A DNA stretch of 64,000 nt from Amphiura filiformis (Eukaryota > Echinodermata > Ophiuroidea > Amphilepidida > Amphiuridae), in contig NC_092644.1 in NCBI RefSeq assembly GCF_039555335.1, positions 49,303,281-49,367,280 on the forward strand. The letters are read 5' to 3'. Both the position numbers and the translations under genes were made by a program. This document shows positions 19,860 to 63,754 of the stretch, one piece after another. The notes under the pieces were generated by a model. It worked only from the letters and a program-made list of their open reading frames with translations. It was not told the origin of the DNA and did not search any database. Numbering within the stretch: the stretch's first letter is position 1; each line of letters begins with the position of its first letter.

Positions 19860-20460
19860 TTCAGATATGAGAAAGTATGCTAATACAAACTATCTCAATC
19901 TGTCACATCTAAATACCCTCAAAATAACTGATGCAAAGTCATTAACCTCATTATAATAATGATATGTCAATACAAATAATCTCAACCTAAATACCTGTAA
20001 AATTATTGTCATTTATAACAATGTTGTATGTCAATAAAACACAATCTGACCCTGAATACCCTCACAATAACTGATGCAAAGTCATTAACCTCATTATAAT
20101 AATGTTATGTCAATACAAATAATCTCAATCTGAATACCTGTAAAATTATTGTCAATTATAACAATGTTGTATGTCAATAAAACACAATCTGACCCTGAAT
20201 ACCCTCACAATAACTGATGCAAAGTCATTAACCTCATTATAATAATGTTATGTCAATACAAATAATCTCAATCTGAATACCTGTAAAATTATTGTCAATT
20301 ATAACAATAATGTCAGTAAAACACAATCTGAACTTGAATACCCTCACAATAACTGATGCAAAGTCATTAACCTCATATTGATAGAGTTTAAACCGATAAC
20401 TGATGCAAAGTCATTAACCTCATTACAACACTGATGTACGTCAATACAAACAATCTGTGC
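19860..20460. repeat. Tandem repeat, 143-bp unit, about four copies
   Basis: Units start at 19915, 20058, 20201 and 20340, followed by a truncated copy at about 20,395. Each has ATAACTGATGCAAAGTCATT, AACCTCATTATAATAATG, AATACAAATAATCTCAA and AAAATTATTGTCA. Spacing of exactly 143 twice and then 139 indicates recent unequal crossing-over or replication slippage. It lies just downstream of gene A's last recognised exon. Confidence 0.9.
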
Positions 20461-20793: not shown

Positions 20794-21675
20794 CTGTTTC
20801 AATGCTTTCAGTTCCTCTTCTTTTGTCGGATCTTTATGCTTCACAAACACAACTCCATCACCAATCTTATGGATTCTCAGTTTGCCATCTGTTCCTTGGA
20901 CTTGTCCACTTTTAAAGGCTGCCTCGGCTTCACTTGATGATGCAAATTGGACATAACCATAATCCAATGATTTACCTGCCTTGGTAACTTTCTTCACTTG
21001 CCCGTACTGACTGAAATACTTCTGCAAAGTTGGCTCTGTGAAGGGACGCCACACTTTGTAGGTATAGACAGGACTCTACAGAAATGGGTGGACTCTCAAC
21101 TATCTCTATTGGTTGGTGTAGCTGTACATAAACAGCTGCAACCCCAATCTTGTGACTTCTAAGCTTGCCATCTTGTCCTTTGGCTTGTCCACCTTTGAAA
21201 GCAGCTTCAGCTTCACTGGATGAAGCAAATTGGACATAACCAGTAGCCAGTGATTTGCCTTCTTTGGTATCTTTTTCCACTTGCACGACTTGACCATACT
21301 GACTAAAATACTTCTTTAAAGTTGGCTCCATGAAGGATCGACACCTTTTAGGTAGAGACGGGATTCTCCAGCTGTGTCCGGAGTTTTCTCTTTTGGTTGG
21401 CTCAGCTGTACATACACAGGTCCACCCCCAATCTTATGGAATCTTGAGTTTGCTTCTCCGTGGGCTTGTCCACTTGTGAAAGCTGCCTCAGCTTGACTGA
21501 ATGAAGCAAATTGGATGTAACCATTATCCAGTGATTTGCCTTCTTTATTGGTAGCTTTCTTCACTTGCACAACTTGACCATACCGACTGAAATACTTTCT
21601 TAAAGTTGGCTCCATGTAGGATGCCACACCTTTTAGGTAGAGACGGAACTGATCCTTCTCTTTCGGTTGCTGCAC
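20794..21675 (-). CDS. Gene A exon 19: three tandem RRMs with two opposite frame breaks
   Basis: This exon is 882 bases (294 codons), phase 0 at both ends, with acceptor TTCCCACAG and donor CAG|GTAATG. It encodes three RRMs of about 90 residues. RNP2-like LYLKGV and RNP1-like NGYIQFAS, TGYVQFAS and YGYVQFAS flank helices PTLRKYFSRYGQV, PTLKKYFSQYGQV and PTLQKYFSQYGQV; each ends with HKIG and an aromatic VYVQL/VFVKH strand. Repeats one and three share a frame; repeat two is shifted by one base missing near 21,327 and one extra near 21,020 relative to the other units. The breaks cancel, as expected from two consensus errors or a compensated allele. If transcription stops here, the C-terminus is KQVMCNC. 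Confidence 0.8.
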
Positions 21676-24600
21676 CTGTGGGAATAATAGTATGATAATC
21701 AAGGAATGTATTAGGATGAATATGGGTTTTCCATATGGCCTTAATTTTTCAATAACAGATTTAACATTTATCAAAGATTTTAACAAAATATAAATAATAT
21801 ACAAAAAATGTGGTAAAATGAACTTTAGTTTAAAAACAATTCTCCCAACAAATAGGCTAAATAATAACTTGCTTTTCAAATTTTGTCACCACATCCATGA
21901 GACTTCAGCAGATTATGACTGTGCTGTAAATTTGTATTACTGTATTTTTAATGTATTTTTGATTTTAGACAAAAATGCTTCTGTATTTTTGTTGGAATTA
22001 AGAATAGGTATGACACACACTTACCTGCTGTTGTTGTACTTCTGACCCACCACTCTCTTGTTTGTATCGCTACAGACAAAAGCAAATGAAACACATTATG
22101 ATTATAGGGCCACTTGGTCACACATACTTTTCAAGCATTTCAGTCAATAAAAAGTACGACCAAAGTGAAAATTTGTGCAGATCCTGAATCAAATCTAACT
22201 TTGAAGAAAAAAAGGGGGCTGTAGTGAGCATGGTTGCTGATTCATGACAAACCATGCAGGTTCCCCCAAAGAAAGATGCACATTGCAAAGTTTGGTCACA
22301 TTTGTAAAAAAATTTAGGGAGCATATCTAGGCATTAACTGTTGAAATCTAAGAGATAACACTGATGAAGTTTCAGTCAGGCACAAGAGACATGGTGAAGG
22401 GGGTCGCTGTAGATAGCTGGTCGGGGCATATTAACAGAACAGGCAAGTGTAGCCAATAAATGGGCTTATTACCATGATCAAAACAGACTAGAAGGAGGTC
22501 TTTTATCATGGGTCATCTGCTCCGCCTTTCCCAGAAGAACCAAGGCAAGAGCAGATTTATTTTTGTCATTGTATTTATGCCAGGAGGGGGATAGGGATAA
22601 CTTACCACCCCTGCCACTCCTCCACTTGGTATGTACAAAATTAAATGAGGACATACCTGCTGATTCAAGTTAACCATAACATGATGAGGTCCTATATTAT
22701 GCTTTCTGTCCTTGCTTTTTCCTGTTGATTCACCGGCTAGATATGCTTTTTGAGCACCATCTGCATACTTGTAATGTATGAAACCGTAGTTGCAATTGGC
22801 AGGCATGTCTAGTTTGTCTATCGTTCCATATTTGCTGAAATGTGCAAGTAGATCATCTCTGGTATAGCATACCACATTGAGAACAAACAGCTTTTTACTC
22901 TCATTACTCTGAAATAAGAAAATGTACAACAAAATATGCATACAGGGTGAGTGAATGTGACCAACCAATTGTATAAAAATCTTTAAAATACTCATCAGTA
23001 ATAAATCATTAAAATTGCAGGACATGATAACTAATGTGTTGTCCAAAATTGAAATATCAATAAGAAACCCATTTTAGTTCTGCGAATTGTGATAACTCAT
23101 TTGTCTCGATAACTCAAAATTTGTAGCCAGAGTGAATTTTTGAATCCATAAAATTGCAGATTCAAAAGTTGCACTAAAAAGCTCCTCAAGCCAGTGTCTA
23201 CATGACTGGTCAAGAATGACCCGCAGTGACCAGTGACAAACAGGCACTCTAGCAACATAAGCAATCTGTATCTTTTTCATTCAAAGGGTCACCATGACAA
23301 CAAATTTTGGGCTATGAAGACAAGTGAGTTTTGTAGAACTAAACTGGATTTCTTTTTGCTGTTATGTTTTAACATTTGAGTTAGTAATCTTAGCATCACC
23401 GATTTTTTTCCCAAAAAATCGGTGATTAGTTGTTTGGCTATCAAAAGCTTCCTTCATCCAATGGAATTTGGGGAGCTGCATAGATAATTGGTGGACGTTA
23501 CAATCTAAGTGCGGATAGGTTTGCGCCAAGTTCGGCTGCAAACCAGCCTAGTTGATGCGATCTGATTGTGATGATCCACCATGGCAGCGAAATTACAGCG
23601 CTTTGATCCCTCTAAGATCCGGAAAAGGTGCTATATAAAACACTGAAATTTATTTATTTATATTGAAGGGGGTAATTATTACTTTATGTGAACATTTGAT
23701 GAATGTACTACTTTAATTTGTGACCATGGTGACCCCTTTGAATGAAAAAGAGGTAGAATCAAAAGTTGCACCTAACTCACTGAAATTTAGTGCAACTTTT
23801 GATTCTAGAACTTTATGCATTCAAAGAGTCGCTGTGGTTACAAATCCAGACAAATAGATTATCAAAATTTGCAGAACTAAGCAGGGTTTCTTTTTGCTAT
23901 TTAGCAAAACAAGAAAATTTGTAAAAAAAACAGGTTGCATATGGACGTTCAATAAAATCACACTCTCTAGCTTCTTTTATGTGACCACAGCATATCAAAG
24001 TACACAGTGATTCCCGAACTACTAGATCGCCCAACCGTCATGGTAGTTAAAGGGGAGATATAGCAATGGCAAGATTTATGGCAATTTAACCCAATTTGAC
24101 TTTTGAACATCTCAAACTCAACCAACGACCACATGAGATACATCTATGCTGCAAAGATGGACACCCATACTCCCTCGGATGTAGAGATATTGTGTTGACA
24201 AGATTTATAGCAATCTCACCCTATTTTATTTTTAACATTTTCAAATGTGCCATGTATAGCTATGTTATGCCTCTACACCATACTCTGTGCTGTAGTCACT
24301 GCAATTAAAGCCAATTGGAAGTTTTTTTACATTCCTCTAGATTATATAAAAGCAGTGTATCATACTCACAATATTTGGCTGGCTTTCTGGCCCCCATTTT
24401 TTGGTACTCTCGTTTGATGTACTAGTAGAAGCCTTAACAAAACAAAAGTAAAACACCATCAATTAATGTTAATTTTAATTTTGAAAACTTGGTATTTGAT
24501 ACAGGTATGTTGATCAATATTGTACATAATGATATCTATCATCTCGTATTGACTATTGTGGCAAAATGTGGACAACTGCAGTGGACAAAGATATTTTTAC

Positions 24601-27600
24601 ACTTGATGTGTGACTTTTGGATTGGGCAGTTTTTGTCTTTAATTTGGGTTCATGCAGCCATGAAGTCATTGACATCTTTCATTTTCAAACAACACTTAGC
24701 AAACAGTCATAAAATCATTTCTCAGTTCGTTTTAATGGTACAAAGTTTTATTCTACAATGTTATGATATAATTTTGCGAGGGGGACTTTTGATGTGTTTA
24801 GTCCAGTTGGAAGAAGGGGTATCCTAAGTTATACAAACCGAGTCTCTAAGTTAATTGGACAGACAGTAAACTAGTGTCTTACCTGCACCAAGCTCTTCTC
24901 CTCAGTTGCGTGCATCTTACACCTCACGACAACACCTTCTATTTTGTGCTGTGAACTATCATTAATCAGAAAGCCATCATTGTAGGCTGCCGAGGCTGCA
25001 GTACGGGTATGGAATTCCACACGTCCATAGGCAGACATTTTTGAAGCATATTTGACATTCTGTTTACCATATTTGCTTTCAAAATATGTACGCAGGAGAG
25101 TCCAAGGAAAGTTTTTGGCTAATCCAAAAACATACAGGGTATTAAGATCCTGTGAAAATGTAACAGAAAAAGGATGGAAATTCACCATTCTAATCAATAG
25201 GTGCACCATTTCCTACTCTATAATATGTGAGTGGACACTACGAATGAGCCGTAAACTCGGCAAATTGTATTCTGAGATACAGTGCAAAATGTGCCGCAAG
25301 TCATATTTATAGGTGTCTCAATTAGGCGTGACATGTTTCTCATTTGATAGCGTTTAAACCAATCAATAATCCTATTGCTGAAGAGGATAATAATCTTCTA
25401 CATATAAAATCATTAAATAGCTCTAGTCTTTGTTTGCTTTGGCTAAATCCTGTTCAAGTGGTGCGTTATAATTGCATTGTATTTTGGCTGGGTATGTATA
25501 ACCAACAATTAACAATGAGAGGACATTCATGTACCTCGTTGACTCAGGGATGATTTTAAATGACCGCCAATTACCAGCAAAGTGGAAAAAGAGACACATA
25601 TAGAACCGAAAAGGGTACCATTTTGTTGAAGGAGCTGAGTTCAACAAACCATAACCCCGCTTCTGGATATCGTTTGAAGTCAAACGATATACTATTTTAA
25701 AGCTTATGATATATGTTTTCTAAACCGGGGCTGAGTTTACGGCCGATTCGTAGTGTCCAGTCACATATGATCAAGATTTTAACCAGACATGTAACAAGTC
25801 TACATTCTGATTGCTTGATTTAAATATTTAAAAAAAAAAATTTGATTAAGGGGGTACATGTACACCCCTGGGCAATTTTGTGCCTATTTTTGCATTTTTC
25901 TCAAAAATGTGACCCCTCGGCACAACTGAGCCCGGATGTCGCCAGTGCCACTATTGAGATATGTTCCATCGAACTTAATAATAAACAATAGGAAACAAAG
26001 GATTTATTGACTGTTTTATTGATTTTTCAATACTTAAATGTCAAGTGCTATAGACATGATATACATCATTTTAAAGCTAATTTCAAGCAGAATATTTTGG
26101 TTGAATATCTCAAAAATGATGATTGGCGACTTCAGGGCTCAGTTGTGCCGAGGGCAGGGGTCACAAATGATAGCACATTGGTGATAAGTAAGATATGTAT
26201 ATTATAGGAGCAAAGACTACAACAACTGCACTGGAAATTTTATTTCAGCACAGACAACAGTTGTGGAGTTACAGTCAAAAATGAGGGGAAACCAGTATTT
26301 GATCAATAAATCAATAACTACTTGCCTTGAGTTGCTGAATTTTCAGTGCAGTAGTTGTGGTCCTTGCCCCTATAATATACATATCTTACTTGTCACCAAT
26401 GCGCTACAATTTTTGAGAAAAATGCAAAAAAAGGCACAAATTTGGCCAGGGGTGTAGTACCCCCTTAATAGTAGACAATTCAATGTTGTTTTGGTTAATG
26501 AACCCTTTGTAGGTCTTTTACCAGACCAGTACAGTCAGGATATTTTTCAATGGAAATCACCTTTATTTATCTTTAATTTTCACTTGATTTATTCAATATT
26601 TTGCATTTGAGTGACAATTTGTTTGATTTTTATTTCATCTATTACAAATTAGGCAGTTTGGTAAATCAGTAATTTAATAAAGCTAAAAACTCTTACGGTC
26701 TACATTATTTTGGGAAAATATTTTTTTGCGATGCAAAGAATAGGGTCGTCTGCACCCTAATAAAACATTGATTTTGTTTTTGTTTACATTAAGGGCTGGG
26801 ATAGTGACGTTTTCGCATATTTATTGTGGAACCTGTGAGCACATCAGACATATCAAATTGCATTTTGAAACTGAGGCATGTCCTTCTAATATCAAGTAAT
26901 TTTGATTTTTTTTTTTTTTGCGATATAATACACATTATATGGTAAATGATTAAAAATTTATATTTTATGTTATGTGGTTGGGGAGCAGAAAAGTGTTAAA
27001 AATCTGATTAAATAAAAAAATTGATTCAAACAAAAATAATTTTATTTAGGTAAACAAACTGATTTACATAACTTTAAAAAAATCAATAACCCTGGATCAA
27101 TATCACAATTTCACCCAAACATATTCCTGCTGATTATGCCCCTACTTTCACGGTACATGTACCAGGTTCCTGCTAGTGGTAGCTGCTAGTGGTAGCAACA
27201 TGGGGGCATGTTCTTGATATATGAACAATGAACAATGAAATATAAAATATTTCTTATGAGAAACGTTTATTTCTTGTCACTGCGTACCATCTGTTTTGAA
27301 GTCCTTACTACTATTTAAGCCAGCTTGATGTGTGTCAATTTTATGTCAAGTAGTTTACTGGCATTTTTGTGATTGTTCAGATTATTTGCTCATAGTCGAA
27401 GCACAATGTAATTGTGTTGAGAGACCAGTTGACAATTTTCCATAAAATTAAACATATAAGGTCACCATACAGGAAACTCCATATTTTATCTCAAGATTTA
27501 TTTTGGTCAGGATGAGTAAAAATTCAAGGTTGATTGTCAAAAAGTTAGTTGCATATGTTTTACACATACTTCAGCATTTCTAATGTAATATATAGCCATT

Positions 27601-30600
27601 TGTATGCACAATTTGCTATTCCAGCTGATAATCCTTCCTTACATGACATGACCTTAATCTTCAACATAGGGAGTGTGAATTTCAAATGGGACTACCTCAA
27701 TGGGTGACTCCATGTGAAGTTCATAATCCTTGTGTCAAAGACTAAGGCCATTATCCCATAGGGTAGTGTATGGATTTTAACTGGAATAGTCCTATATGCT
27801 CCAACCACTAGGTAATTCCACAGAAAAGTCCTGGGAATTAAGAAATCTGTCCTGGGTAGGGGAGGAATAAGCACTATGCTTTGGCTCAATGTGCCCGTGC
27901 ACATTCCTTTTTCTTATTGAGTCCATTACTGCTGTTTTTAGTTTTTGCTGTAAAATCATAACATTCTGAGAAATATTTGCAATCGATATTTATACTTGAA
28001 TTGTGTTTACAAATGAACCACAATCTTATGCTGTGTACTTTCGAACACTCGCATATAACATCATAATTCAAAATTCAATTAAAAAAAATCTTTAAAAAAC
28101 CAAACGCATTCTGCATTCATTTTTTAAAACTGACAAGTGCTTTGAAACATAATAACATTTTTTTTGTTTAGCCTTATACTCACAATTTGCTGTTGATTGC
28201 TTGTTGAATTCGCTTCACCAGTAGTAGATGTGGGCTTACTCTCCTCCGGCATGAGTAATTTGCACTTCACAAAAACATTATTAATATAATGCTGGGACGT
28301 ATTGCCCACCACAAATCCACCATTGTATGATGTCAAAGCTGTTGCACGCTTGAAGAATTCAACATAGGCACTTGGTTCATTGGCATTCATAGTAGCATAC
28401 TTAACTTTACCAAATGTTTTCTCAAAGTAGCTGCGTAACACTTTCCAAGTCAAGGAAGAATTCTTTGGTATTCCAAAAACAAACAGTGTATTAGCCTCCT
28501 GTGAAGATTAAAACAGATATAAGATTGTGTGAATTAAAAAAAGTAAAAAAACCCAGCTATTTCTCTCTAAGACTAGGATGCGTTGCCCATGCCCGACTTG
28601 TTCTTGGAGATCGAGAGGTACCCAGATTGTGTATTTTGTAATATTTTCTTTGTAACATCATCTAATTATACCATTCACTACAGCCAACATATGAAGAGCT
28701 TTGTTTCAAAACCCCTTACATCCACTTGCCCATTTTGAGAACACATCAAAAATCATCAAAAAATCATTGATATACGGGGTTTGCAACAAAATAAGTTTTT
28801 GACGGGATGCTTGGGTAGAATGAGCATCCTGCCAAAAACTGTTTTTGTTGAAAAACACCTTATATCAGTGATTATTTTGATTATTTTTTGATGTGTTCTC
28901 AAAATTGGGCAAGTGGATGTAAGGGGTTTTGAAACAAAGCTCTTCATATGCTGTCTTATACATTTAGTGCTAGCAAAAATTAGGACCAAAGGTTTCCTCT
29001 CAATGTTTGGGACTGGTGACATTATACAGGGTGCACAACTTATAAGTTCCCCCTATATACTTTTTAAAATAATAAATATTTTACGAAATGTAAAAAGATA
29101 TAGCCCTATTTGTTTTACCCCTGTGTGGATTTCAACTTGAATAGCCAAATACTCACCTCAAACTTTTGGGATTTGGTAGTTGACTTAGCTTCACTTGCGT
29201 TAGGTTTCGCTACACCACCTGGCACCTGAATATACAAAAAAGTACAAGATCAGATCGAAAACAGGTCAATAACAACTCAACTTAAAGTCCCATTCAGTGA
29301 TCCTAGCACAAGTGTAAAAAAATTAAAATTGTTTAATTGCTTAAAAGTGAAGAATAAGTCATTCAAATTGTTATTTGATATTTTTGGAATGAAAAAACAG
29401 CAGTATTGATGAAGTTGAAGCCCCATTTAAATACATGTAGCTAAGTATATAAATTACATTACATTATGTTACATTATTTAAGGGGATACTACACCCCTGT
29501 GGTAAATTTTTTGCATTTTTTTCTCAAAAAATAATAATACACTGGTAACAAAAGTTATGTATATTATTGGGGCAAGGAATCCAATTACTACACTGAAATT
29601 TCAGTGACTCAAGACAAGCGGTTTCGTATATGTGATAAGAAATGAGGTACATCCTATCGGTACCTTATTTCGTATGATAAATAACAAACCGCTTGCCTTG
29701 GGTCACTGAAATTCCAGTGTAGTAATTGGATTCCTTGCCCCAATAATATATATAACTTTTGTTACCAGTGTGTGATTAGTTTTTGAGTAAAATGCAAAAA
29801 TAGACAAATTTATCGTGGGGTGTAGTACCCCCTTAAAATGCCTTATTTTGTCTCAATTACACAGCTTTTGACTGAACAACTAACAGGACATGTTAGCACA
29901 TCGGACAATGACATAGGTACCAAAATGTGAACTTTGTGGTAAATTAAAGTCATGTCTTCCATAGGGGGTGTGTTGATTTAAATTTAAATAGCCCAATACT
30001 CACCTTAGCTTCACTTGTGTTAGGTTTCACTACACCACCCGACACCTGAATATACAAAAAAAAGCACAAGATCAAAAATCGGTCAAAAACACTTTTTGGT
30101 TATGAAAGTTACAAACCTCATTAGCACTGATTATGATGGAAACTTTTTCAGGCCGGGGCTAGATTTACCACGTTATGACGTTGGCATAAGTTGCAATGTT
30201 CATCTTCCTTTGGTCCGGTGTTAGGCCAGAATTGCTCTCTAACCCCATTTTAGCAGTTGCCCCAGTAAAGAAACTTATGAATACTCAAGTAACTTGAATC
30301 AAGAATTCTTGAAAAAACTTAGTTACAGTGGTGGGGTGGAGGGTGTAACACTTCAATACGAAGAGCCAGGGGCCCAATCCTATTGCTGTGCCCAAGGGCC
30401 AGCAAAAGGCAAATCCAGCCCTGAACCTTTTGGTGCTAATATGCACTGAATAAGCTCCTAAAAGAGTTGGTTTGTCCACAACTGACCAACCCATATATTT
30501 GGAACTGGGAAAAAAAGCTTATATTAGGTAGTTTTTTTAATCAGTTTGTTCACAATTCTTAAGGGGTACTACACCCCTCGATAAATTTGTGTCTATTTTT

Positions 30601-33600
30601 GCATTTTTCTCAAAAACTAATAACATAGTGGTAACAAAAGTTATGTATATTATTGGGGCAAGGAATCCAGTTACTACACTGGAATTTCAGTGACCCAAGA
30701 CAAGCGGTTTGATATTTATGATCAGAAATAAGGTACCGCTAGGATGTACCTCGTTTCCTATCATATATACCGAACCGCTTGTCTTGAGTCACTGAAATTT
30801 CAGTATAGTAATTGAATTCCTTGCCCCAATAATATACATAACTTTTGTTACCAGTCTGTAATTATTTTTTGAGAAAAATGCAAAAATAATCACAAATTTA
30901 CCACATGGGTGTAGTACCCCCTTAACTGTTTTAAAACATGAAAAAATAATTCTTACACTGTCATTGGGCTATTCCATTTGAAATCCAAACTACCCCTGTG
31001 GAAGATTTTAAGTCTTCCACAGACGGAGTATGAGTTTTGAATCAAATAGACAATTTGGGTAACTTCCATGTGAAATACTCACTCCAGTTGTGGAAGACAT
31101 AGGTAAAGTCATAATACAGGGGGAGTATGGGTTTCAAAATAATTAACTCTGACCAATTACATTTGAAATTCATACCCCCTCCTGTGACAGATATTTCCAA
31201 AATCTTCCGCAGGGGTAGTGTGGATTTTAAATGGAATAGCTCATTATTAGTTCAATACCTGCATCATACTAAGCATTCACAAGCATAGCATTTTGTCATC
31301 ACCTATTCCACTGCTTGACTCCACAAGCAAATGCCGATGTATGGTATAGTGTCAAATCACAAGCAGTTCAAGGCAACTTTCTAGTGACAGTCATTAACTA
31401 TGACTTAATGAGTGATTTTTCAACACTTGCGACTGTTATAAGGCTGCGATCACATAGAAGTATACAGTATATGGTATTCGCTATACGATTAACGCTCATT
31501 CGATCAGGCTGAGTTCACATGAGTATACTATGTGAACTCAGCTTGATCGAACGAACATTAATCGTATAGCGAATACCGTATACTTCTATGTGATTGCAGC
31601 TTTATGATATGAGCATAACTCTCTAGGACGTACAGTTGAGGAATGAAAGCCAATACAGCTTACCTGTTGTTCATTGTTAGCACATTGATGCGTTGACAAT
31701 TTTCCAGTGACGTGACTCTTGCATTTAAAACACACTTTGGTAGTCTGAGGTCTGAAACATTAAGATTACACACATCTATTAACAAGTCTATAAATACCGT
31801 AACCACTCGGGTATAAGCCCACCCCCCTAGATGGCAGATTTCACTTCAAAAATGGGGGTGGGCTTATAATCGCGAAAGGGCTAGTGTGTGAATTTAAAAA
31901 TAAGAACAATCATCCCCCATTTGTATGCCCAATATACCAGTAATTTCTATAATCTATGTCAATTTCTTAAAATTATAAGTGTGGAATGTTAATTACCAAC
32001 TGATATTTTTTTATATTTGTTCTTAAATATGAGAGCAAAGCATTGATTTGATTTAAGAACTTGGCCAAAATTTAGTACTGGGCTTACACCTGAGTGCACC
32101 CTTGTTCCCAGAATGTTTGGAAAAATAGGGGGTGGGCTTATAGCCGAAGGTGGGCTTATACCCGGGTGGTTACGGTACACGCAGATGACAAAAATGTAAA
32201 GTGTCACACAAATTTGACAAAGTATTTAGCAACAAAAATTGCAATATTCAGTCAGTGAGTCCAGGGTCTTGGCTAGATATTTATAAGCGCTTCTTTTTGT
32301 TTGAATGAGAATCACCTCACCGAAATCACTGACCATAAAACCTGGTTTCTACACCTACTGGGGGTCATCACATTCAAATGTGCTGTTTCTATTTACATCA
32401 ATTTTCCTTTGGTCCTAGTTCACAGAACATCAAAATTTAGAATGTGTTAAAATCACTAAATTTGCCCGACTTGGGGCACACCAAGACAGGCAAATAACAG
32501 ATGGATGGGGTGGTAGCTGTAGTAAAATGCCGAATTGTTTTAAACTAAGCATAGTCCTCGCATTGTAAGTGGGCATTACGTCACATGTGTGCATCTGACC
32601 TTAAGAAATGCAACTCATTTGTAAAAAGGATATAGAGGCCGTCAGCCTTTCGCCATCTTGTAGGTACAAATGATCTGCGGGTTCATGCGTTGGACACTAC
32701 GCGCAGGGCGCTGCTTGGCACGCAGCTGTTATCACACATCAACCACGGTGATTTTGTTGTCCATGCATGGAGATCGAACAGCCATCACAGAGTGTACCCA
32801 CAAGATGGAGGCAAATGACGTCACGCTGACGGCCTCTATTGGCATTTTATTTTAGCCAAGCCTCTGTGTGAGTCTTAGGTAGGATATTGTGTCACTCCGT
32901 GTGCATTTTGCGACAGCAATTTCATGTTAAATGGGTATGAAAATACTTTTGCCAGATTCGGTTATGTACCCATTCTCCATTTGCACCATACTCACTGACT
33001 TGGATATATCCTCTGACAGGGTATCTGTGTGATATATGATAATGATGGTACAAGTATATTTTTAGTCAGACAGTAGGACTGTCAGACTAATATATGTGAC
33101 ACGATCTGGTCTATGGGGCCAAAGGCGGCAAATTTGAAACTGAGATAAAGGTAAAAATATGGAGTAAAAAACAATGAAATACATAAGAAAATAGACATCA
33201 AAAAACTTCATAACTTTAGAACCTTAGTATGCTAGACCTTTGGTGTTTTCAGTAAATATTAGCCTATTGTATGTATAATGGTTATTAAATGTAATAATTA
33301 CAGTAACTCAATTTTCATAAATGCCTCCTTTGGCCCCCATGGACCAGATCGTGTCACATATAGTAGTCTCAGATCCCTTTCCCTGCATTTTTTTTTCAGA
33401 ACTCTTGGATCTAGCATGGTTACCCAGACACTTGCAACAGCTTGAAGAAATGTCCTTATATGATCTGCATACTGGCTATAATAGGTTTTAACTTTAAAAG
33501 TCTGAGAGATATTTTCTCAAAATAATAACCACTGAACCAATACTGGGCTTGTTTGTACTCGTTTTAAGATATTGTTCATGCGGATTCCAAATTTAAAATT

Positions 33601-36600
33601 AAAAAAAAAAGCACAGTGATTTATTGTGCACTATGCACAGGCACAATGCTTAGACGTTAATCCACAAGCCTCAGTACACTTTACAGGAACTCTGGGATCT
33701 AGCATAGTTACAAGTTCCAACATTTAAAGAAAAATGTTGGAACTTGTCGTCTGCAGTAGACACCCGTGTGGAGAGTAGAAAACTGTCCCCATTTTTCTTA
33801 CCTTGGAGTTTGTTCAGATCCTTGGTTGCTTTGGCTGGACTTTTGTTTCAGATTATTAGCCACTAGTTCCTTATGCTTGGCTGTTTTACTATGCAGTTTC
33901 CAGCTCATTGCGTTCTTACACACCACGTTACACAAGCTACATTTTAATTCCTTCGAGTCAAGCGTTTGTGGAGTCACTTTCAGGTTTATTGGAATAACTG
34001 TCTTCTCTGGAGGCTGTATGACTGGTGGAGGCTGTATGACTGGCGGAGGCTGTATGACTGGCGGAGGCTGTATGACTGGCAGAGATGCATTCGACTTTGA
34101 TTCACTTGGTATGGTCACAACTGATGAGTCACCTGCACTGTCTTTCCCACCTAACCATCTTAAAACTTGTTTTGATTTTTCACTAATATTTGTTATACTA
34201 ACAGGGGCATGAACTGTTGATTGCACTTTTCTAGGAGGAGATTTGGACTTTCTTCTTGGTGACTTGGATCTTTGAATTGGGGACTGTGATCTCCCCAGTT
34301 GGGCATGAGAATGTCTCCTTGGAGATCGAGATTTTCTCATTGGCGATCGAGATCTTTTTGGAGATGGAGATCGTCTTCTTGGAGACGGAAATCTTCTTCT
34401 TGGAGATGGGGATCTCTTTTTTGGAGATGGAGATCTTCTTCTCATGGATGGAAAACTTCTTTTTGGGGATGGAGATCTTCTTGGAGACGAAAATCTGGAT
34501 TTTCTTCTTGGAGATGAACTTCTTTGTCTCTTAGGAGGTCTTGATGTTGATGAAGTTGTTGAATCCACTTGCACATCAGTGGATGTGCTTTCTCCACTCT
34601 AAACACATAAAATGAACACATAAAAAAAGGTTACAACAGGGTGGAATATTGATGTTTCAAACAGTCTGACACTAATTAACCTGAGAAAGTCCAAATATGG
34701 ACATGGATATTCCTCTCTTAACCATTAATATCTTAGATTTCCGTTTTCACATTGAACGCAACAAAAAACAAATACTTGCACCATGGTTTTGTGTAAGTAC
34801 ATTTTTTGTAGAGGCAGACCTCCACCCTATATGTGACCCGTTTCAACGAAAGGTTCCTTATGTCAGCTGCTACATGTGTTTTCTTTTCCCCATTGTTGGA
34901 ATAAAAACTTCAAACAATCATAACAATCTGAAGTGGCGGTCATTTCAAATCATCCCGAAGTAAACAAGGTCAAAGAATGTCCTCTCATTGTTAGTTGGTG
35001 GCTAATACATACCAACACAAATACAATACAATGCTTTTACCACTTCAGGGATTAGCCATAGTAAAAAAAAAGACTGGAGATGTATGACAAACATTTCTAT
35101 AGACTATAGGTACAAGCTTATTATCCTCTTCAACAATAGGAGTAATGATTGGTTTAGAATGTGCTTGGCACTAGAAAATAAGACATATGTAGCACCCGAC
35201 TTAAGGTACCTTCTGCTGTAACAGGTCACATATATCTGCATATGTCTCTCTCTCTCTCACACAGGAGACAAGGAGAGTTTGGCCTTCTGGTATATATCAT
35301 GACAACTCTATGTTTGTGTGTTACTCATGGTGGGTTAAATCCACTTTGATAATATGTTTTGATAATAGGTTTTCAACCAAATTCCTATAAATTTATATTT
35401 TTTAAAATAAATTTTGTACATTAATATGTGCAGATAATATAGGAGAGAAACGAGAAGATAGGCAGTATCAGGCCTAGCAAACCCACTTATTATTATATCT
35501 GGGGAATTTAATTCAAAATTACTGTTGTCATAGTTATTTACCAATTTCTTTTTGAAGTTGTAAAAAGTAGTATGTTTTCATTATTGTTGGTTAAAGATGC
35601 ATTGATTCACGTGTGAAATAGCTACCTTGCCAAGATGATAAATATGACCATCCACCACAAATGAGCCCAGAAGCTACAGTGCAAAATATCCAAAAATTTC
35701 ACATTTTGAGAAAAATTATATTTGAACAGATTTGAAATAATTCACACCTTTCTTATACAGCTGCCAGGTTATACAGCTGTACAAAAACTAAAAGTAATTA
35801 AAAATTTACATTTATGGAGCTGGTTTCAACAGAAATAATAGAATTACTGTAAGTGCAGTTTTTTAAGTGTTGCGCCCTGTTGTAAGGCAAAATTTGAAGA
35901 AATGTAACTTTATTTCAGGATATCATATAAGGTTGGTTGAAGTGTCAGTTTGTAGCTTCAGGTATGATCTTTCCAACTCTCTTAACTTTGTGAAGGGCTA
36001 ACTTCTGGGCTCATATGTGGTGGACGGTCACAAATGTTATAGTGGGTAGGAGGTATTGGTAGTGGGACATCTGTCTTACCTGTTCATACTTTCCACCTTG
36101 AATTCTGACAAAGATAACATCTCTTAAGTTGTGTCCAATGTTGTGTTGACTTACTAGTTGTCCAAGATGTGTTGATCTTACACCAGCCTTAAAAGCTGCA
36201 CGGGCTTCAATGGCATTTTCATATCTTATTATACAAAATGGCTTTGGGCATCCAAAACTAATATCAAATTTAACAAAAAATCCATATTGACTGAAATGAT
36301 CTTTAATAGCACCGCCGTTTTTTGGTATCCTGCCCACTGCCACTAGTTGACGCTGTGAGATGTCCTGTGATGGGAAAACAATGAAACATGTATGTAATTG
36401 ATTTCATGCATGCTACAAAATGTAGTCATAAAGTACTAAGGGATATATGGCTTCAATACCCAACCTTCGGTCAACCATTATCACATGACTGCTCAATTTA
36501 CCGTATTGGTCCGAGTATAGTCCCACCCGTTTTTGGTGAACATTTTTCACAATTGGGGGGTGGGATTATACTCTAATTTCAAAAAAAAAAAAAAAATGTT

Positions 36601-39600
36601 TGTTGTTTTTTTTTAAGTTTTTTTTTTTTTTCGGTTTTGGAGTGTCCCTGGACCTAGACCTAGATGCTAGGATCATTCATGGTTGACCTAAAAAAAATTG
36701 AATTTGAATGCATTTTGATATCCTTAATAGAGTATGACATGAATACAAAATATCAATTTTCATATTAAAAATACAAAACATCTTGAATTTTTTTTTTTTT
36801 TTTTTTTTTTTTTAGGTCAACCATGAATGATCCTAGCATCTAGGTACAATTTCTGGAATTTTTCGAAAAATGGGGGGTGGTACTATACTCGAACGTGGGA
36901 CTATACTCGGACGAATACGGTACTACAAAAGAAAACAGACATATACTGCCAGGGGTATATTTCACCAATATAAACACAACACAAAGAGAAAGTCCTCACT
37001 CCAATGACCCATCATAAATCTAAACCTAGTCATGTTATGACAATTTGATTGATACTGGTTGTGTTTCAAATTTGGATCTGATACAAGAACTATGGGTAGT
37101 GGATACTACAGATAGTAAATATTCATGTGAAAGATAATTTTTTTTGTACCCAGATTTTGTATTTTCAGCCTATTTACAAGTTGACCTCAAATGACTTGTG
37201 ACCTCAGTATGTGACCTTGAACACCACCATTACTGTTACATGCAAGCTCCCTTAATGCAGATTTGGCTCAAGTTTGATTGCCTTGCATAATTGTTGACGG
37301 ACACACTGTTGACACACTGACACTCAACTAGTGATGCCATAAGGTCTTTTCCTAACAAGGTCTGCAATTACTTGGAATAAAGTACCACAAAATGTTTGCC
37401 TAAACTTTGATCCTGAACAAATTCAAAAAATGAAAAAAGCAGTAAATCATTTATTCAGAAACTGAGACTTATTATTTTAGTTTTTTATGCAATATTAAGC
37501 ATCATATTTTAATTACCAGATGTAAGCATTTCAACTTTTTCCTACAATTTTTATCCAAAAACTTGGAAATGGTGCTTAAAGAGAAATTCAGAAATTTGTT
37601 CTCAAAACATGGATCAAATTGTTTAAAATGCAACTGAGATTTTCAGTTGGAATTTAACATAAAGCAGTATATGAGCGTGGACTGTCATAGACCAAAATAT
37701 AGGCCATTTAGGTAGCAGCCTGAAATATGTAATGTCAAAGCAGAAAGCAAGCACACCTGTATAGCTCATACAAAGGTACCCCTCCATGGTGTACTACACA
37801 CTAGGTGAGAGCAACCAAGATTTGTTTAACCTTGCTATTGGGTTTTACACATAATCTATAAATTTGCAGTGTGTAATGAATCAATAGTTTATCATTTTAA
37901 ATCTATAGGAGTTAGAGAGTCAACTCCACTGCAAATCCTGTTTTTGATTATTTTGGTATTGCTGCCAAATGGAATGAAGCTGCCATGTTAGCTACAGGTA
38001 TATCCAGTCTGCATACATCACACTTCATGTGTGATGTGTCCAGCTAATCTATACAAAGACAGTGTACATGGATAACCTGGAGGAGCTGTCAAAAATACAC
38101 ACATTTCAAAACAAGGATAACTGCACCCATTATGAAAATTCACACAAACGCATCATTTTCAAAATACATTGAACCCCTTATTCCAATTTCCAATTTGTCA
38201 AATTCATGTCTCAGAATGTTTATATTTTGTAGACTGATAAATGTTTCCATATATTGCACCCAAGTGTCAGTGCTAAACCCCTTGTGTGGAGCAAATAATA
38301 TTACCAGTAGTCAATTTGACCAAACATAGCTATTCTTCCCCCTCCATAATGTGTCTTGAAGCTTGTACGGGCAACATTTTTCTATCTGTCAAGGCTTAAG
38401 TGACACCATGTCATAACCCGATTGGCTAAAACCAAACATTATTAACACTGTTGGCCTAAAGCCCAGCTCTTTCAGTGAGTATGGAAATTTCCATTACCAG
38501 TGTATTGAAAAGCACCTGATCAGTGAAGTGTATCAAAGAAATAAATTGGGTTTTTTTAAAGACTTGATGCAGACTATAAGGTTACATGTTGTATGTAAAG
38601 GCCTACAGGCTGCAGTTTGCCATGTGCTAATGGGTGGTAAGTTTGATCAGAGGAATTTATATGGTGGAATAACATTTATTCATCATTTTTGGCAACAAAT
38701 TTCACCCAAATTGTTATTTTAAAAGGATATTCTTACAGAAGGACTTCTCCTAATCAAATTTAGCCACAAAAGACAATGGTGAGTAAGTAACTTGTTGTAA
38801 AAAAAATCTGCTGTACATGGACAGCATGATTTCCTAGTTTCTATGTGGATTGTTAGTTGATAATGATACCATTTTCCGCATGTAAGCTACAGGTATGAGA
38901 ATGATTTTTTAAAAACTGCCTGAAAAAATGTGTGAATGTGAAAAAAAAAATGGGTAAATTTGGACAACAAAACTGCCTAAAAATTCTCATGCCTGCAGCT
39001 ACTGTCTTCTGTTACATAACATACCTCATTGTTGGGATTGCTGTTGGGATTGCGTGATTTTCCTTTTTTAGAAAGCCACACATGACAGCTCCCAATGTTG
39101 TGTCGTCTCTTTATATCCCCTTCCACAGGCTCACCAGCTTGGAATGCTGCCTCTGCTTCAGCGGCGGTGTGAAAATACAGATAACCAAAATTTTCTGATA
39201 CAGTCTGGACACGTTCAAATCTGTCTAAACCATATGTGTTGAAGTATGCAATAAGCTCTCGTTTTCTTCCTTTAGGTACACCACCAACAAACAAGACATT
39301 ACCACATCTGTTTGGCATTAAAGCATCATTACAGGTGGAGCTGGCAGGGGATTCAGGTACTTGTTGAGCTTGTTTTTGCTGTACTGAAGAGGTGTTTGTC
39401 CCTGTACTTGTATCAACAGTTCCAACAAATGGCTGAAATAATAAAAAACCCAAGAATAATGTAGTGTGTAAATAGGCAATTCTACTTGATATCCACACAC
39501 CCCCTAAGGTAGACACAACCTTAATTCCATTCAGGGAACTCCATTTAAAATTCACACTCCCTGTCATATCTGTCATAGGGGGTCTATGGATTGTAACCGG

Positions 39601-42600
39601 AATAGCCCAATATGCCCTTCAAAGACACATTAGGAATGGCTTCAGACTGTCAGAACCGACAGTTTAACTGCATTCAATAATAATCATTGTTCTGAACAAT
39701 AGAGACCAGGTCCAATCATCAGTTCCACCATGGTGTCGGCGGACAAAAGGCGGTTGGAGAAGCTATCCCTTACATGTTTGTAACAGGCTGATAATGATTA
39801 CACACACATACACACAGGGGTTATTGATATCAATCAATGACTTCTGTGGGTGACAGGGACTACATGGTACAATGGTGACTGAAAAGTTTTTCCTCCAATT
39901 GCAGTAAGGCCATCTTCTAATAGTTCATCTTAAATGCCCTGTTTGCATCAGTAAAATTGCCCGTTTGTTGTGTGTTATTCATTATTTTACGCTGTTTTAT
40001 TTTTTCCAAATCCACCACACAAAAATCTCACGTCTGACATTGCCAGATGTCAAAATAGCCTAAAATGTCAATCCCAATAAAATTCTTCATCTTGACCACA
40101 GTGAAACCTTCTTGAAAGATGAAAAGGTGGTATATTCTTGTCGAAAAGCTCATCCCACAAATAACAAAAATTAAAGTAAAAAATAAAAACTCTGCATTAT
40201 GTTTTTAACTTGGGAAATTAAGATGGCCTAATTGGTTGTTAGCAGTAAGCCCATTTTATCCTGTTCAATTTTCATAGGTCAAAATGAAAATTGTTATCTT
40301 TACAAATATCAAAGAAAAAAAAAATCTTGTTGTTTTCTAAAGTGAGAAGTTGAGAAGTGACTGTTACAAATTAATAAGTTAATAAATTTCCATCAGTTAT
40401 ATGTTTTCCATTGTGAAAAATCTAAACATTTTGCTTGTACCATAGAATGTTCCTTGGGGCGCACTCGGGGTACGCACTTCAGCTCCAAGGGTGATTTTCA
40501 CAATGCCCTCAAAACAACTGATACTAAATACTAGGTTATTAACCCAAAATCAATGATACTAAACTTACCTTGCAGTCTATGACTGTTTGTTCAATACAGT
40601 GATGTGATTTCTTTGTGAGTCCATCTTTGTAAGCAGCTTCCACATCATGAGGCATTGCAAACTCTAGATAACCACAGCCATTAGCTACCTTGATGTCCTT
40701 CATCTGACCATATTTGCTGTAGTACAGGGCTATATCCATGTCCGTAACATTGTGTGCATCTTTTACAAATAGCCTACATGGGTTGAATTGCTGTAATTAA
40801 ATGATAAGCATGTATTTAGCTTTGCAATACGTCAAAGTGCCCAGTGAAGAAAAAGGCCTCCTCCTGAACACAAAGATGACAATAATACTGGTTGTAGAGA
40901 GAAGGGAGCCAAGATGAGTTTGTGACCAGATTGAGGTGAAGCAATTTGAATACCTGGGCTCAATGATTAAAAGGGGTCTCCAGTAATCATAACATTATGC
41001 CTTATATGTTAGAAAAATAATTATCAAGCATGAATCATATGATCTTATTTAAAACAAACTCATATTGACCATACAAAACGAATAAAAACAGTCGGCTCTC
41101 AACATGCGATATTCAAAATTCCCGCACCAAAATTGTCTAAATGCAATGACATAATGGTTACTTGTCATCAAATGTCATTAGCCTTCATTGTATTACTTGG
41201 ACGTCATTGCACTCGACAATTTCGGCACCCGGGAATTTTGAATATCCCGTGTTGAGAGACAGATGTTTTTATTCGTTTTTATGGTCACTATGAGTTTGTT
41301 TTAAATAAACAATGTGATTCCTGCTTGAAAACTATTTTTCTTACTATTAATTAATTAATGTTGTGATTGCTGGAGACTTCCTTTAACAACATCGGTGAAG
41401 ACGGGCTATTGCAAGGATAACTGTGCAAGGCATGCCAAGGATATGGAAAAGCCAAGGCCTATCCATTGATCTCAAGGTGCACCTATTACGTGCAGTTGTG
41501 TACTACTAACAGACGTGGGTCTTGGGCTATGACCAAGAATGAAATGGAAAGACAGGAAAACAAATTCCTGGTTTCTAGACAAGATGTGTTCAAGATTTAC
41601 CATCAAAAATGGCATGATATAATGGAGAAAGAAAAAGTACTTTGGCCATATTGTCAGGAAACATGCGGGTAGAAAACAAATTTTGCAAGGAGCTATATAC
41701 ATTTAACTAACATCTTGGACTAATGATGTTTGAAGGTGGTCTAGCCAAGGAATGCACGTTGAAATGCACCAGACATCAGATTGACCTTTTTGATAAATCC
41801 CATGAGCCTTTGCGAGTATACCTGAAATGTCTTCATTTGAACGTCAGTACGCATCAGGCCAATGCACACATCGTTTATCGAACATCGTTACTGCGCATTG
41901 CAAGTCGGTGTGACGTCAAATGACAACATCTCAGGTGTACTCGCAAAGGCTTATGGGATTTACCGAAAAGATCAATTGAGCCAGATACTATACTCTTGTT
42001 CAGACCACAGGCATAAATCCACTCACCTGTACACCATCATTGACAGGTCTGAAGCATTCTACCAAACTCTTGTTAATATTATGCTCTGATTTCTCCCATT
42101 TCAGTCCTGCTTTGTAAGCAGTATCTGCAGCAAGGTCTGACTCAAATGCAACAAATCCATATCTATATAAGCCTTGGTGTTCTAGTCTTTGCAGGATGCC
42201 CACGGATGTCACTCCTCCATAATTGCTGAAGTACTTCTCAATCTGACCTTCTGTCAGATCTTTCAAACGGCTTATGAGTAGGCAGTTCTGAAGTAAAGAA
42301 AATTATTCATAATTAAAACTACATTTTTGTTGCTATTTTTCATCTTGGTGAGTCACTAACTTCAATGTGTTGAGGCAATTGTTTGGTGTATGCATCTATG
42401 CTTTGTCTTTAAACGCATCTCTTGCTACCAAAAACAAGGTTCTCCCTGCAAATGCATGCACAGAAAGTGCATTTTTTATTTCTAATGCTCTTCTAGCAAC
42501 GTGACAGGCTTTTGCAAAGCATATTCAGTTATTAAAGCATGCTTTCAACTTCTCTGTACTTCACTTGCCCATTGTGCATACTCTGACTATTACATTTAAG

Positions 42601-45600
42601 CATTAAACTTTGATTTGTATTAATTTGTGTATGATTGATAGATTTTCACATCTGATCTTTTCAATAACTATACATACTCTCTCTGTTAGCTTCCCAAGTG
42701 GACTACTTAATTTGGATTGTGGTTAACATGCTTAGCCCAGTTGTCTATTGAAAGATTGTTGAATTTCTGGCCTACTAAAAATCTTGTATACATCGTATAC
42801 AGCTATCTGTGGAATTTGTGGCGCTTTGTGTTGGCGCAAAACTAAAACTCTTAACTTGTTGCATAGATGTACATCTAGCGCGTCTTGTATTTCCATGCTT
42901 TTACTTGCGGTTAAATTGGATTGATAAACAAGTATGGTTGACGCTAGGACACGCTAGCGACATATTGATCAGATATCAGCAATCGCCTTTCCGTTAAGTT
43001 ACAGCACAAAATACACTATGCTCCTTGAGATTTACCTTTCCCCCTAGTCCTATAATTCTTTGCGGCTAGACTCTAGATGCTGTCATTTGATGTCACACCC
43101 ATGTGCACATCGTTAAGCGAACATCTAACTGCATATTTCAAAGCTGTGAAGCACCCAGTAACAATGTGTAACGGCAAAGAATTACGGGATTTACCGAAAA
43201 GGTGAATTGCTTAGTATGATATTGGTATTATTCTGCAGGTTAGTGCCGTGTAATATCACAGCTTAAGTACTCACCTCAGGACATCTTGATTTGCATGAGA
43301 GAGCTTTCCCCTTGATCCAATGAGTACACATGCCTGCTTCACCACTGCTTTGTCCAGCCTTTATTGCTAACTCAACATGATTTGGAGATTCAAACTCGAC
43401 AACACTAGAGCCAGCTGTTTTCATAGTGATTTGAGTCAAGGTCCCGAACAGACCAAAGTAATTTCGGAGATCATCTTCAGTAATATCATTCTGTATGCCA
43501 CTCACATGTAATTCATAGGGATTACTTGTAGCAACCTAAAGAAATTAACACAAACAATCAAATAAATGAAATAAATACAAAGGTACTAAAGTATATTTTA
43601 TAATTCTTCTGTCACTGATCCCAATGGAAACAAGCTTCCTTTTGGAAGCTTTCTTGGGCTGTCCATGGTCATAATTCAACGCTGTTTAAAAATTTAATTA
43701 CCGTAACCACTCGGGTATAAGCCCACCCCCTAGATGGGCAATTTCACTTCAAAAGTGGGGGTGGGCTTATAACCGAGGAGGGGCTAGTAGTTGAATTTAA
43801 AAATAAGAAAAATCTTCCCCATTTGTATATGCCCAATGTATCAGTAATTTCTATCATCTTTGTCAATTTATTTACAATTTTAAGTATGGAACTTAACTTT
43901 TAACTGATATTTTTAAAATATTTGTTCTTAAATGTGAAAGAAAAGCATTGATATGATTTAAAAATTGAGTCAAAATGACTACTGGGCTAATACCCGAGTG
44001 CACCCTTGTTCCCTGAATGGTTTGAAAAATAGGGGGTGGGCTTATAGCCGAAGGTGGGCTTATACCCGAGTGGTTACGGTATTTCTATACTACACCCATT
44101 TGCAAAGATCTTTCGCAGTGCTCGATTTGGAGCAGTTTACGGTGTAAATATAAAGTTGGGTTCTACTTGGGTAATTAAATCATGTCATCATCACATCAGC
44201 ACCTCATTTGCTGATCAATCTGCGTAAAGCATTGTGCGACACAGGCATGACCTAATTCTTTTTACATGATCGATCGGCAGCAGTGTGAAGGGTCTTTGCA
44301 AAAGCCTGCAGCAGGAGACCTGAAATCAATCAATCAATCTATGCACCAATGACCAATGGGGCAACCATGTTTGTGTCATGACTGAAGATCAGCCACTCAC
44401 TGTGACTGCTTTCACTTCCGTGCCATACGCTCGATGCATAGCACATACCGCAGTAGAAACAACTTGTTTGAAGTCAGATTATATGCATGTCTTTGCATGA
44501 CAAATTATGCCAACTTACACCTGTTCATGCCCACTCTGTATAGGATGGTTATATCAAGGTAAAAAAAAGTTTTATGGTCGGTCTGTAGGACGTGTTTCTT
44601 TCCAAAAATGTCTTAAATGACCCTTAAAATATCACAAAAATTAACAAACAAAATGAGATTTGACATGTGTTGTGAAGTCAAAATCAGTCTTATATGATTT
44701 ATGGTCTTACTTCAAATTCTTTCTGTAAGTTGCACTGGAATAGAACAGTCTTAACCAGATGACTTGATTGTCCTGAGTGTCCCATGCCAAGTCCATCTTG
44801 GTAGGCTTTCTTCACCTGATCCATGCTATCAAACTCTACATGACCTCTACCTTCACTATCAGACTCTACCTCAACACTTTTGATTTGCCCATACTTGCTG
44901 AAGTACAGAAGCAGGTCCATTTTGGTCAGACTAGATAAGCCTTGCAGATACAAGAGGTTGGATGGAAATTGCTGTAATGAAGGGAGAAAAAAAAACTTAT
45001 GAAAAAAGAAGACAGCATATGACAGCTTTTAAATCCCATTATCATTGTTGGGCAGGAAAACTCTCCTATGTGTTTGTGGCCCCTGAACATGTTTAAAACA
45101 AAACTGCCAACCGGTTACATGGAAGGTTTTGCTCTAAACATGTTCATGGGCCAATGACACATAGGGTTTTTTTTCAGCCCAACAACATTATGTGATTTTC
45201 TGTGCAAAACATTTGACCTAGATTCATAAACTGGCTCAGAAATCCAATCACCATCATCAAAATATCTCTTTACAGTTCAAATAAATATTACTTCATTCAA
45301 ATTCTCTTATTTATTTCTGTGATTCCAACATACCTGTGCAGTATCATGTTGCTGTTGGTTTGACAACCCCAAATCATCTATCATCGCTGAGACATTCTTT
45401 CCTGATAGCCCTGTGTTGGTGTAGCCAAATCAGTATTTCTAACACTGGTATCAGTGATCATTTGCCAATCTGATAATAGGTTCTTCTGAGTAGGAGTCAA
45501 CTCAGATGAGAGTAAGTCTGGATTGTGAGGAGGAGTTTGCCTTCCAGGTATACCAGGAATGGTATGTTGTTGTGAATATCCTGCTGAACCTGTTGCATTG

Positions 45601-60136: not shown

Positions 60137-60421
60137 ATGGCTACTTTTGAAGATATGGCCCAGAGGATAAAGCACATGAGTCCAGAAGAAATTGCTGTTG
60201 TGTTCAGCCAGCTTCAACGTGGCCAGTTGGTTTTGCAAGATGGAAACTCACAAGAGCAGGATGAAAGGATGGCAGATGGTCCACCAAGGGATGGAAGAGA
60301 AGTGGACAGGTACCATCGAGAACAAGATCCTCGACCACATATGCCGCAACAAGAATTTCCAGACCAACCTGCTCAAATGCAGCAAGACTTCATGGACGAT
60401 CATCTGCAGTTAGCTCAATCG
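60137..60421 (+). CDS. Gene B exon 1: N-terminal helical region
   Basis: This exon holds 95 codons from ATG, in context TGTAGATGG, ending phase 0 at TCG|GTAAGG. It encodes MATFEDMAQRIKHMSPEEI, AVVFSQLQRGQLVLQDG, then a hydrophilic Asp/Arg/Gln/Pro-rich stretch with QEFPDQPAQMQQDFMDD. The SPEEIAVVFSQLQRG part looks like a short amphipathic helix pair. The last codons and the donor overlap a tRNA-like A-box (TTAGCTCAATCGG); see the findings. Confidence 0.7.
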
Positions 60422-63669: not shown

Positions 63670-63754
63670 GTAAGTTGTAGTTTCAATCATCTGGGAATCG
63701 TAAATGAAAGAATGAATAAAATCTAGTCAACCAGATTATTCCACATACCTTGGG

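Follow-up and report, generated by a model that had tools for sequence, protein, structure and literature searches.

A 64,000-nucleotide stretch of the Amphiura filiformis genome (contig NC_092644.1; hereafter the window) carries on its minus strand a series of exons coding for units that resemble the RNA recognition motif (RRM). The locus raises two questions: whether these exons form one gene, and whether the His-x-Ile (H-x-I) signature of the units distinguishes them from known RRMs. Our reading, held with moderate confidence, is that they belong to one large animal gene encoding a multivalent, probably nuclear, RNA-binding scaffold with twelve RRMs. The RRM domain and the H-x-I signature are of known kinds; the copy number in one gene is unusual. 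Computation supports the units themselves, with their phases and splice sites, and shows how they are related to each other, how two of them fold and where H-x-I lies.

In the proposed history, the twelve RRMs would descend from one ancestral RRM akin to those of the hnRNP A/D, Musashi and TDP-43 branch. Phase-0 exons would have been duplicated to multiply it, and at the 3′ end it would have been tripled in tandem within one exon. They would be joined to a low-complexity region rich in Ser, Thr, Tyr, Gly and Gln, an Arg-Ser (RS) tract and a double-stranded-RNA-binding or matrin kind of C2H2 finger, and strand, order and phase suggest that all the exons lie in one transcript. The RS and low-complexity parts would target the protein to condensates or splicing bodies, and skipping of phase-0 exons would tune the number of RRMs.

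Twelve RRM units on phase-0 exons

Ten exons, running from 44971 down to 20794 on the minus strand, encode twelve RRM units, U1 to U12 (Table 1). All ten are bounded by AG at the acceptor and GT at the donor, are read in phase 0 and have lengths divisible by three, so that the predicted phase-0 RRM exons, three of them of 261 nucleotides, are confirmed by splice sites and lengths.

A profile built from the twelve units recovered exactly these twelve among the open reading frames (ORFs) of at least 20 residues in all six frames of the window, with 77.5 bits as the lowest score. As the profile was built from the very units that it then finds, a leave-one-out run served as control, in which U10–U12 were removed together as a group; eleven units scored 47–74 bits and U6 scored 28.8 bits. 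No thirteenth unit was found in the 64 kb, the next profile match having an E-value of 0.72 and the best match in a threefold larger shuffled set one of 0.34. Searched against the Protein Data Bank (PDB), the unit profile reached 34.7 bits for the best single domain among the five alignments printed, and 40.6 bits for the best one-stretch chain among the best 60 of 467 sequences. Set against the leave-one-out scores, these values show that 11 of the 12 units are closer to each other than to the solved RRMs compared, U6 being the exception.

Pfam RRM_1 matches eleven of the twelve units at E ≤ 1, of which nine lie above its curated cut-off and two, U5 and U8, below; the unit left unmatched is U7. 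Four RRM-protein families of NCBIfam were matched, in at most five of the twelve units, and a PDB search with U8 alone returned no match at E ≤ 1. AlphaFold2 models of U9 and U6 have the RRM fold, β-α-β-β-α-β, and in the twelve-unit alignment no stop codon was found inside any unit's own frame. Profile, leave-one-out control, Pfam and the two models together bear out the original prediction of twelve RRM-like units in one stretch. The YFS-YG motif that it ascribed to every unit is literal in five (U1, U3, U10, U11 and U12) and takes only variant forms in the other seven: YFGLFG, YYSKYG, YFNTYG, HFSQYG, YFEKTFG, YFESKYG and HFSKYG.

The H-x-I signature belongs to a known kind

The His is present in all twelve units and is followed, one residue on, by Ile in eleven and by Val in U1, as expected from the claim that each unit keeps H-x-I or a close variant. 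The two residues, which modelling of a unit had been proposed to place, lie on the strand before β4 of the RRM fold. The further claim, that no known RRM signature covers H-x-I, did not hold. The program hhalign set the H-x-I column against H-K-V of hnRNP A1 RRM1 (probability 97.1%), H-M-I of TDP-43 RRM1 (96.7%) and, over half of the domain only, H-E-I of Musashi-1 RRM2 (83.7%). The alignment with hnRNP A1 RRM2 (96.8%) ends before the His, and the likeness of its H-T-V comes from the PDB letters only. The same kind of reading gives H-K-L in RRM1 and H-Q-I-G in RRM2 of hnRNP D-like, and H-I-L in Hrp1 RRM1, Hrp1 RRM2 having no His at that position; alignments to the top PDB matches, poly(A)-binding protein and nucleolin, stop short of the His. 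The proteins compared were chosen for having a His there, so they establish the motif within a known branch but give no measure of its frequency among RRMs.

With H-x-[V/I/L] at the same position in hnRNP A1, TDP-43, Musashi-1, hnRNP D-like and Hrp1 RRM1, the idea of a new motif was rejected. The simplest reading is that His-x-Ile would be a structural residue pair common to a known RRM branch, not a novelty in RNA reading. We take His followed by an aliphatic residue before β4 to be a mark of the hnRNP A/D–Musashi–TDP-43 branch, in keeping with the PDB letters. The result links the array with an RRM branch that is already known and relevant to disease, rather than with a new motif.

The array is set apart by its copy number, by an invariant Gly after helix 2 and by a longer loop before the His. 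This Gly ends helix 2 in all twelve units, and no counterpart was seen in the relatives compared. Between it and the His lie 6–12 residues, and the hhalign alignments to three relatives contain 9–10 gap positions.

Relation to known RRM proteins

Like the units, the RRMs of hnRNP A/D, Musashi, DAZAP1 and TDP-43 combine the RRM fold with H-x-[I/V/L] before β4. Musashi-1 RRM2 and TDP-43 RRM1 have I-x6-C-K in common with one subtype of the units (C-type, see below), and hnRNP D-like RRM2 has H-x-I-G in common with the other (G-type). In contrast to the short helix 2–His spacing of this branch, that of the units is 9–10 residues longer (three members aligned); here, moreover, twelve copies stand in one gene and the ribonucleoprotein (RNP) motifs are often degenerate. 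hnRNP A2/B1 gave the top single-domain scores among the five PDB alignments printed, and CUGBP1, SPEN and TDP-43 came further down the ranking, among the best 60 of 467 sequences. Since the helix 2–His spacing differs and the rankings, weighed below, are not exclusive, we file the units as relatives of the hnRNP A/D–Musashi–TDP-43 branch and not as members; the tie is not exclusive.

Matrin-3-type RRMs were also considered and rejected, as hhalign gave a probability of 4.4% against MATR3 RRM1, compared with 97.1% for hnRNP A1 RRM1; the MATR3 RRM1 query itself matches the chains of 1x4d, RBM20, PTBP1 and ZNF638. PMC12795506 describes the MATR3/RBM20/ZNF638 family as uniting an RRM, an RS-rich region and a zinc finger in one protein. 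The locus studied here would share this combination; the copy number and order of the RRMs differ, and because the units have no match to Matrin-3 RRM1 the resemblance is architectural only. As for copy number, RBM proteins carry one to six RRMs, with up to six in RBM19, according to PMC8600070. RBM19 resembles the array in having many RRMs per chain; here there are twelve, plus an RS tract and a finger. The penultimate RRM of RBM19 (2cpf) came at rank 34 among many fold matches.

Searches of open-access papers found, among the papers listed, no many-RRM protein of the same kind, which is no evidence of absence from print, nor any name for the architecture, in agreement with the original prediction, which had none to offer. 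Relatives of U12 were sought in bacterial or archaeal and in viral contigs, and none was confirmed among 57 and 7 pattern matches, respectively, a result of little weight.

Two subtypes and the history of the array

A tree of the twelve units separates C-type units (U1–U4, U7 and U8) from G-type units (U5, U6 and U9–U12) with support of 80/86, a split present in 81% of 200 bootstrap trees; two subtypes can thus be told apart, as had been proposed. C-type units carry a Cys seven positions after the Ile, followed by Lys in four of the six. The pair U7 and U8, at 95/96, is the sole strongly supported branch of the nine inner ones; U5 pairs with U9 at 88/96. The branches are long and the deep branching order is weakly constrained. 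U10, U11 and U12 are the youngest copies, with 77–78% blastn identity to one another, and their triplication inside one exon catches the expansion of the array at a late stage. Expansion through duplication of phase-0 exons, as originally put forward, is supported. Along the minus strand the types follow in the order C C C C G G, RS exon, C C G G G G. Three or fewer type switches occur in 6.7% of shuffled orders, and with so few branches supported, duplication of a C–G set as a block was kept only as a weak candidate.

RNP residues and predicted RNA contact

The three RNP2/RNP1 aromatics are complete in U5 and U9, and two of the three are kept in U3, U4, U7, U8 and U10; U1 and U6 have one each and U2 none. 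RNP2 is missing from the aligned frame of U11 and U12, which have one (U11) and two (U12) aromatics at the other positions. This distribution suggests a mixed array, with canonical binders in the minority and several units degenerate. Those that keep their aromatics, U5, U9 and perhaps U12, would make most of the base contacts, and the degenerate U1, U2 and U6 may act as spacers or in protein contacts. Twelve related RRMs with unevenly decayed RNA-contact residues would amount to a natural experiment on the number of RRMs that an RNA scaffold needs.

Breaks in the reading frame

In exon 19, which carries U10–U12, the frame of U11 differs from that of U10 and U12. When aligned, U11 lacks one base where it begins and U12 has one extra where it begins, and in phase 0 a stop codon lies just past the start of U11. 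The two shifts cancel, and the length of 882 nucleotides remains divisible by three. Upstream of U1, the low-complexity exon ends out of frame with that unit, a third frameshift. A continuous twelve-RRM protein is not encoded by the sequence as assembled. Pairwise Nei–Gojobori ratios of nonsynonymous to synonymous substitution (dN/dS), over 69–72 codons with each unit in its own frame and given with no confidence interval, are 0.48 for U10–U11, 0.31 for U10–U12 and 0.19 for U11–U12; on these values the frameshifts would be due to assembly error or very recent damage, a cause favoured over an old pseudogene. Splicing within exon 19 could also restore the frame, but through poor sites.

Weighing of the single-gene reading

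Several findings weigh against one gene for a twelve-RRM scaffold derived from the hnRNP A/D–Musashi–TDP-43 branch. At 28.8 bits, U6 is only weakly related to the other units. The whole-chain ranking of the unit profile in the PDB places poly(A)-binding protein and nucleolin before hnRNP A2/B1 and A1, U12 alone finds nucleolin first (E 6.1e-12) and TDP-43 third of 14 sequences, and Foldseek and VIA-align rank hnRNP A1 below ALKBH8, PUF60, yeast U1 snRNP and a ribosomal protein of the chloroplast; the fold searches single out no RRM branch. The full set of RNP aromatics is lacking or cannot be aligned in ten of the twelve units, which makes RNA binding by many of them doubtful. The three single-base frameshifts interrupt the reading frame as assembled. 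No confident in-frame exon chain was found from the RS/finger exon, which leaves 2 nucleotides, to U7. Neither the start nor the end of the gene was found, an automatic exon chain giving many low-scoring exons that were not trusted, and the donor at the 3′ end, at 20794, has a low score of 5.6.

The locus might instead hold two or more genes, one with U1–U6 and the low-complexity exon, another with the RS/finger exon and U7–U12 (or U7–U12 alone), the C/G set having been duplicated as a block. The order of types on either side of the RS exon, the pairing of U5 with U9, the first G-type unit of each block, and the missing in-phase chain from the RS exon to U7 would all fit. We nevertheless consider it unlikely, as the RRM exons are all on one strand and in phase 0, the U6 donor and the acceptor of the RS exon are both phase 0, the block pattern is weak by the shuffling given above, and U7 and U8 are sisters of one another, not partners of U1–U4. 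That the gene is a decaying pseudogene, its frameshifts real and the full protein no longer made, would account for the three shifts and for a duplicated RS-rich segment at 47778–48582; against this, the reading frame stays open in the remaining nine RRM exons, all of them with AG/GT splice sites, dN/dS is below 0.5 between U10, U11 and U12, no unit has a stop codon in its own frame and the shifts of exon 19 cancel over its length, and we think it improbable. Far less probable still is an intron inside exon 19 that would contain U11, so that the shifts are spliced out and eleven or ten RRMs are left. Five internal splices do yield an open in-frame product, the two best being 21344–21036 and 21629–21036; yet their donors score 3.1 and 6.7, against 8.2–12.5 for ten of the eleven donors of the matrix (the eleventh, of U7, has 5.2), their common acceptor scores 6.8 against 8.1–14.8, each of the two products loses six residues between strand 1 and helix 1, and U11 shows coding constraint.

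The single scaffold gene, which we prefer, might be extended to an undescribed animal protein family with the longest RRM array known. There, an RRM of Musashi/TDP-43-like type, its loop extended, would have been duplicated as phase-0 cassette exons, and alternative splicing would set both the number and the choice of RRMs presented; this we put forward only tentatively, as possible but doubtful. Vigilin (HDLBP) is a long array of one small RNA-binding domain, with 14 KH domains. If such a family exists, the nuclear scaffold would be the RRM counterpart of vigilin, an analogue only: KH is not RRM, and homology is not proposed.

Exons between and upstream of the RRM units

The coordinates of all exons and candidate exons are collected in Table 1. 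The RS/finger exon lies between U6 and U7, and its first 130 residues include 30 Arg, 36 Ser and 15 RS/SR dipeptides. Its finger matches zf-C2H2_jaz (E 0.0069) and zf-met (E 0.046), neither match reaching the Pfam cut-off, and a PDB search with this exon returned three chains at E 0.25–0.74.

Table 1. RRM exons and associated candidate exons in the window (nt, nucleotides; pLDDT, predicted local distance difference test)
Feature	Position	Strand	Length and phase	Remarks
RS-rich candidate exon region	47778–48582	−		present twice, 98.8% identity in a 405-column alignment
Low-complexity exon	45334–46192	−		S, T, Y, G, Q, N 62% beyond first 60 residues; charged motif; frameshift before donor; probably same transcript
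U1 (C-type)	44711–44971	−	261 nt, 0-0	single-unit exon
U2 (C-type)	43275–43535	−	261 nt, 0-0	single-unit exon
U3 (C-type)	42027–42287	−	261 nt, 0-0	single-unit exon
U4 (C-type)	40569–40790	−	222 nt, 0-0	single-unit exon
U5 (G-type)	39025–39432	−	408 nt, 0-0	single-unit exon including N-terminal linker; RNP aromatics F/F/Y
U6 (G-type, most divergent)	36080–36364	−	285 nt, 0-0	single-unit exon; AlphaFold2 pLDDT 89.8
RS/SP and finger exon	33802–34598	−	797 nt, leaves 2 nt, not symmetric	RS/SP-rich tract of ~130 residues, then C2H2 finger
Candidate small exon	29157–29225	−	69 nt, phase 0	similar candidate at 30004–30045
U7 (C-type)	28184–28498	−	315 nt, 0-0	single-unit exon; donor 5.2, weakest of the set
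U8 (C-type)	24883–25149	−	267 nt, 0-0	single-unit exon
Candidate small exon	24370–24432	−	63 nt, phase 0	weak score
U9 (G-type)	22657–22908	−	252 nt, 0-0	single-unit exon; RNP aromatics F/Y/F; AlphaFold2 pLDDT 93.4
Small linker exon	22025–22069	−	45 nt, 0-0	
Exon 19, U10 + U11 + U12 (G-type, tandem)	20794–21675	−	882 nt	as assembled, −1 shift at U11 start and +1 at U12 start

The region at 47778–48582 contains a segment of about 400 bp with RS-rich coding potential twice in tandem, with small indels. It probably belongs to the 5′ portion of the gene, or else arose by duplication in the assembly, and its two copies may represent either a recent duplication or unmerged haplotypes. Further upstream, plus-strand ORFs at 60137–60433, 62086–62514 and 62974–63726 are divergent to the RRM array. 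One of them and the low-complexity exon have a weak motif in common (25.4 bits, E 7e-04, in a single comparison), and the plus-strand gene at 60137–63726 is a possible paralogue.

Other features of the window

Just downstream of the RRM exons, at 19909–20388, a 143-bp unit is repeated in three tandem copies and a partial fourth. On the minus strand, an ORF of 418 residues at 490–1746 contains two tandem SGNH/GDSL lipase-like stretches; its match to the OSK (Oskar) domain, at E 0.00013, is below the cut-off. Rfam at gathering thresholds and a tRNA scan each gave 0 matches in the window. Palindromic repeats some 370 bp long are interspersed at 29478–29839, 30555–30925 and 49593–49962; their identity reaches 93%, and they are presumably like foldback elements or miniature inverted-repeat transposable elements. 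A 253-bp segment at 25902–26154 recurs in inverted orientation about 20 kb away, at 5244–5495, with 97.6% identity, and the pair is probably a recent transposable element.
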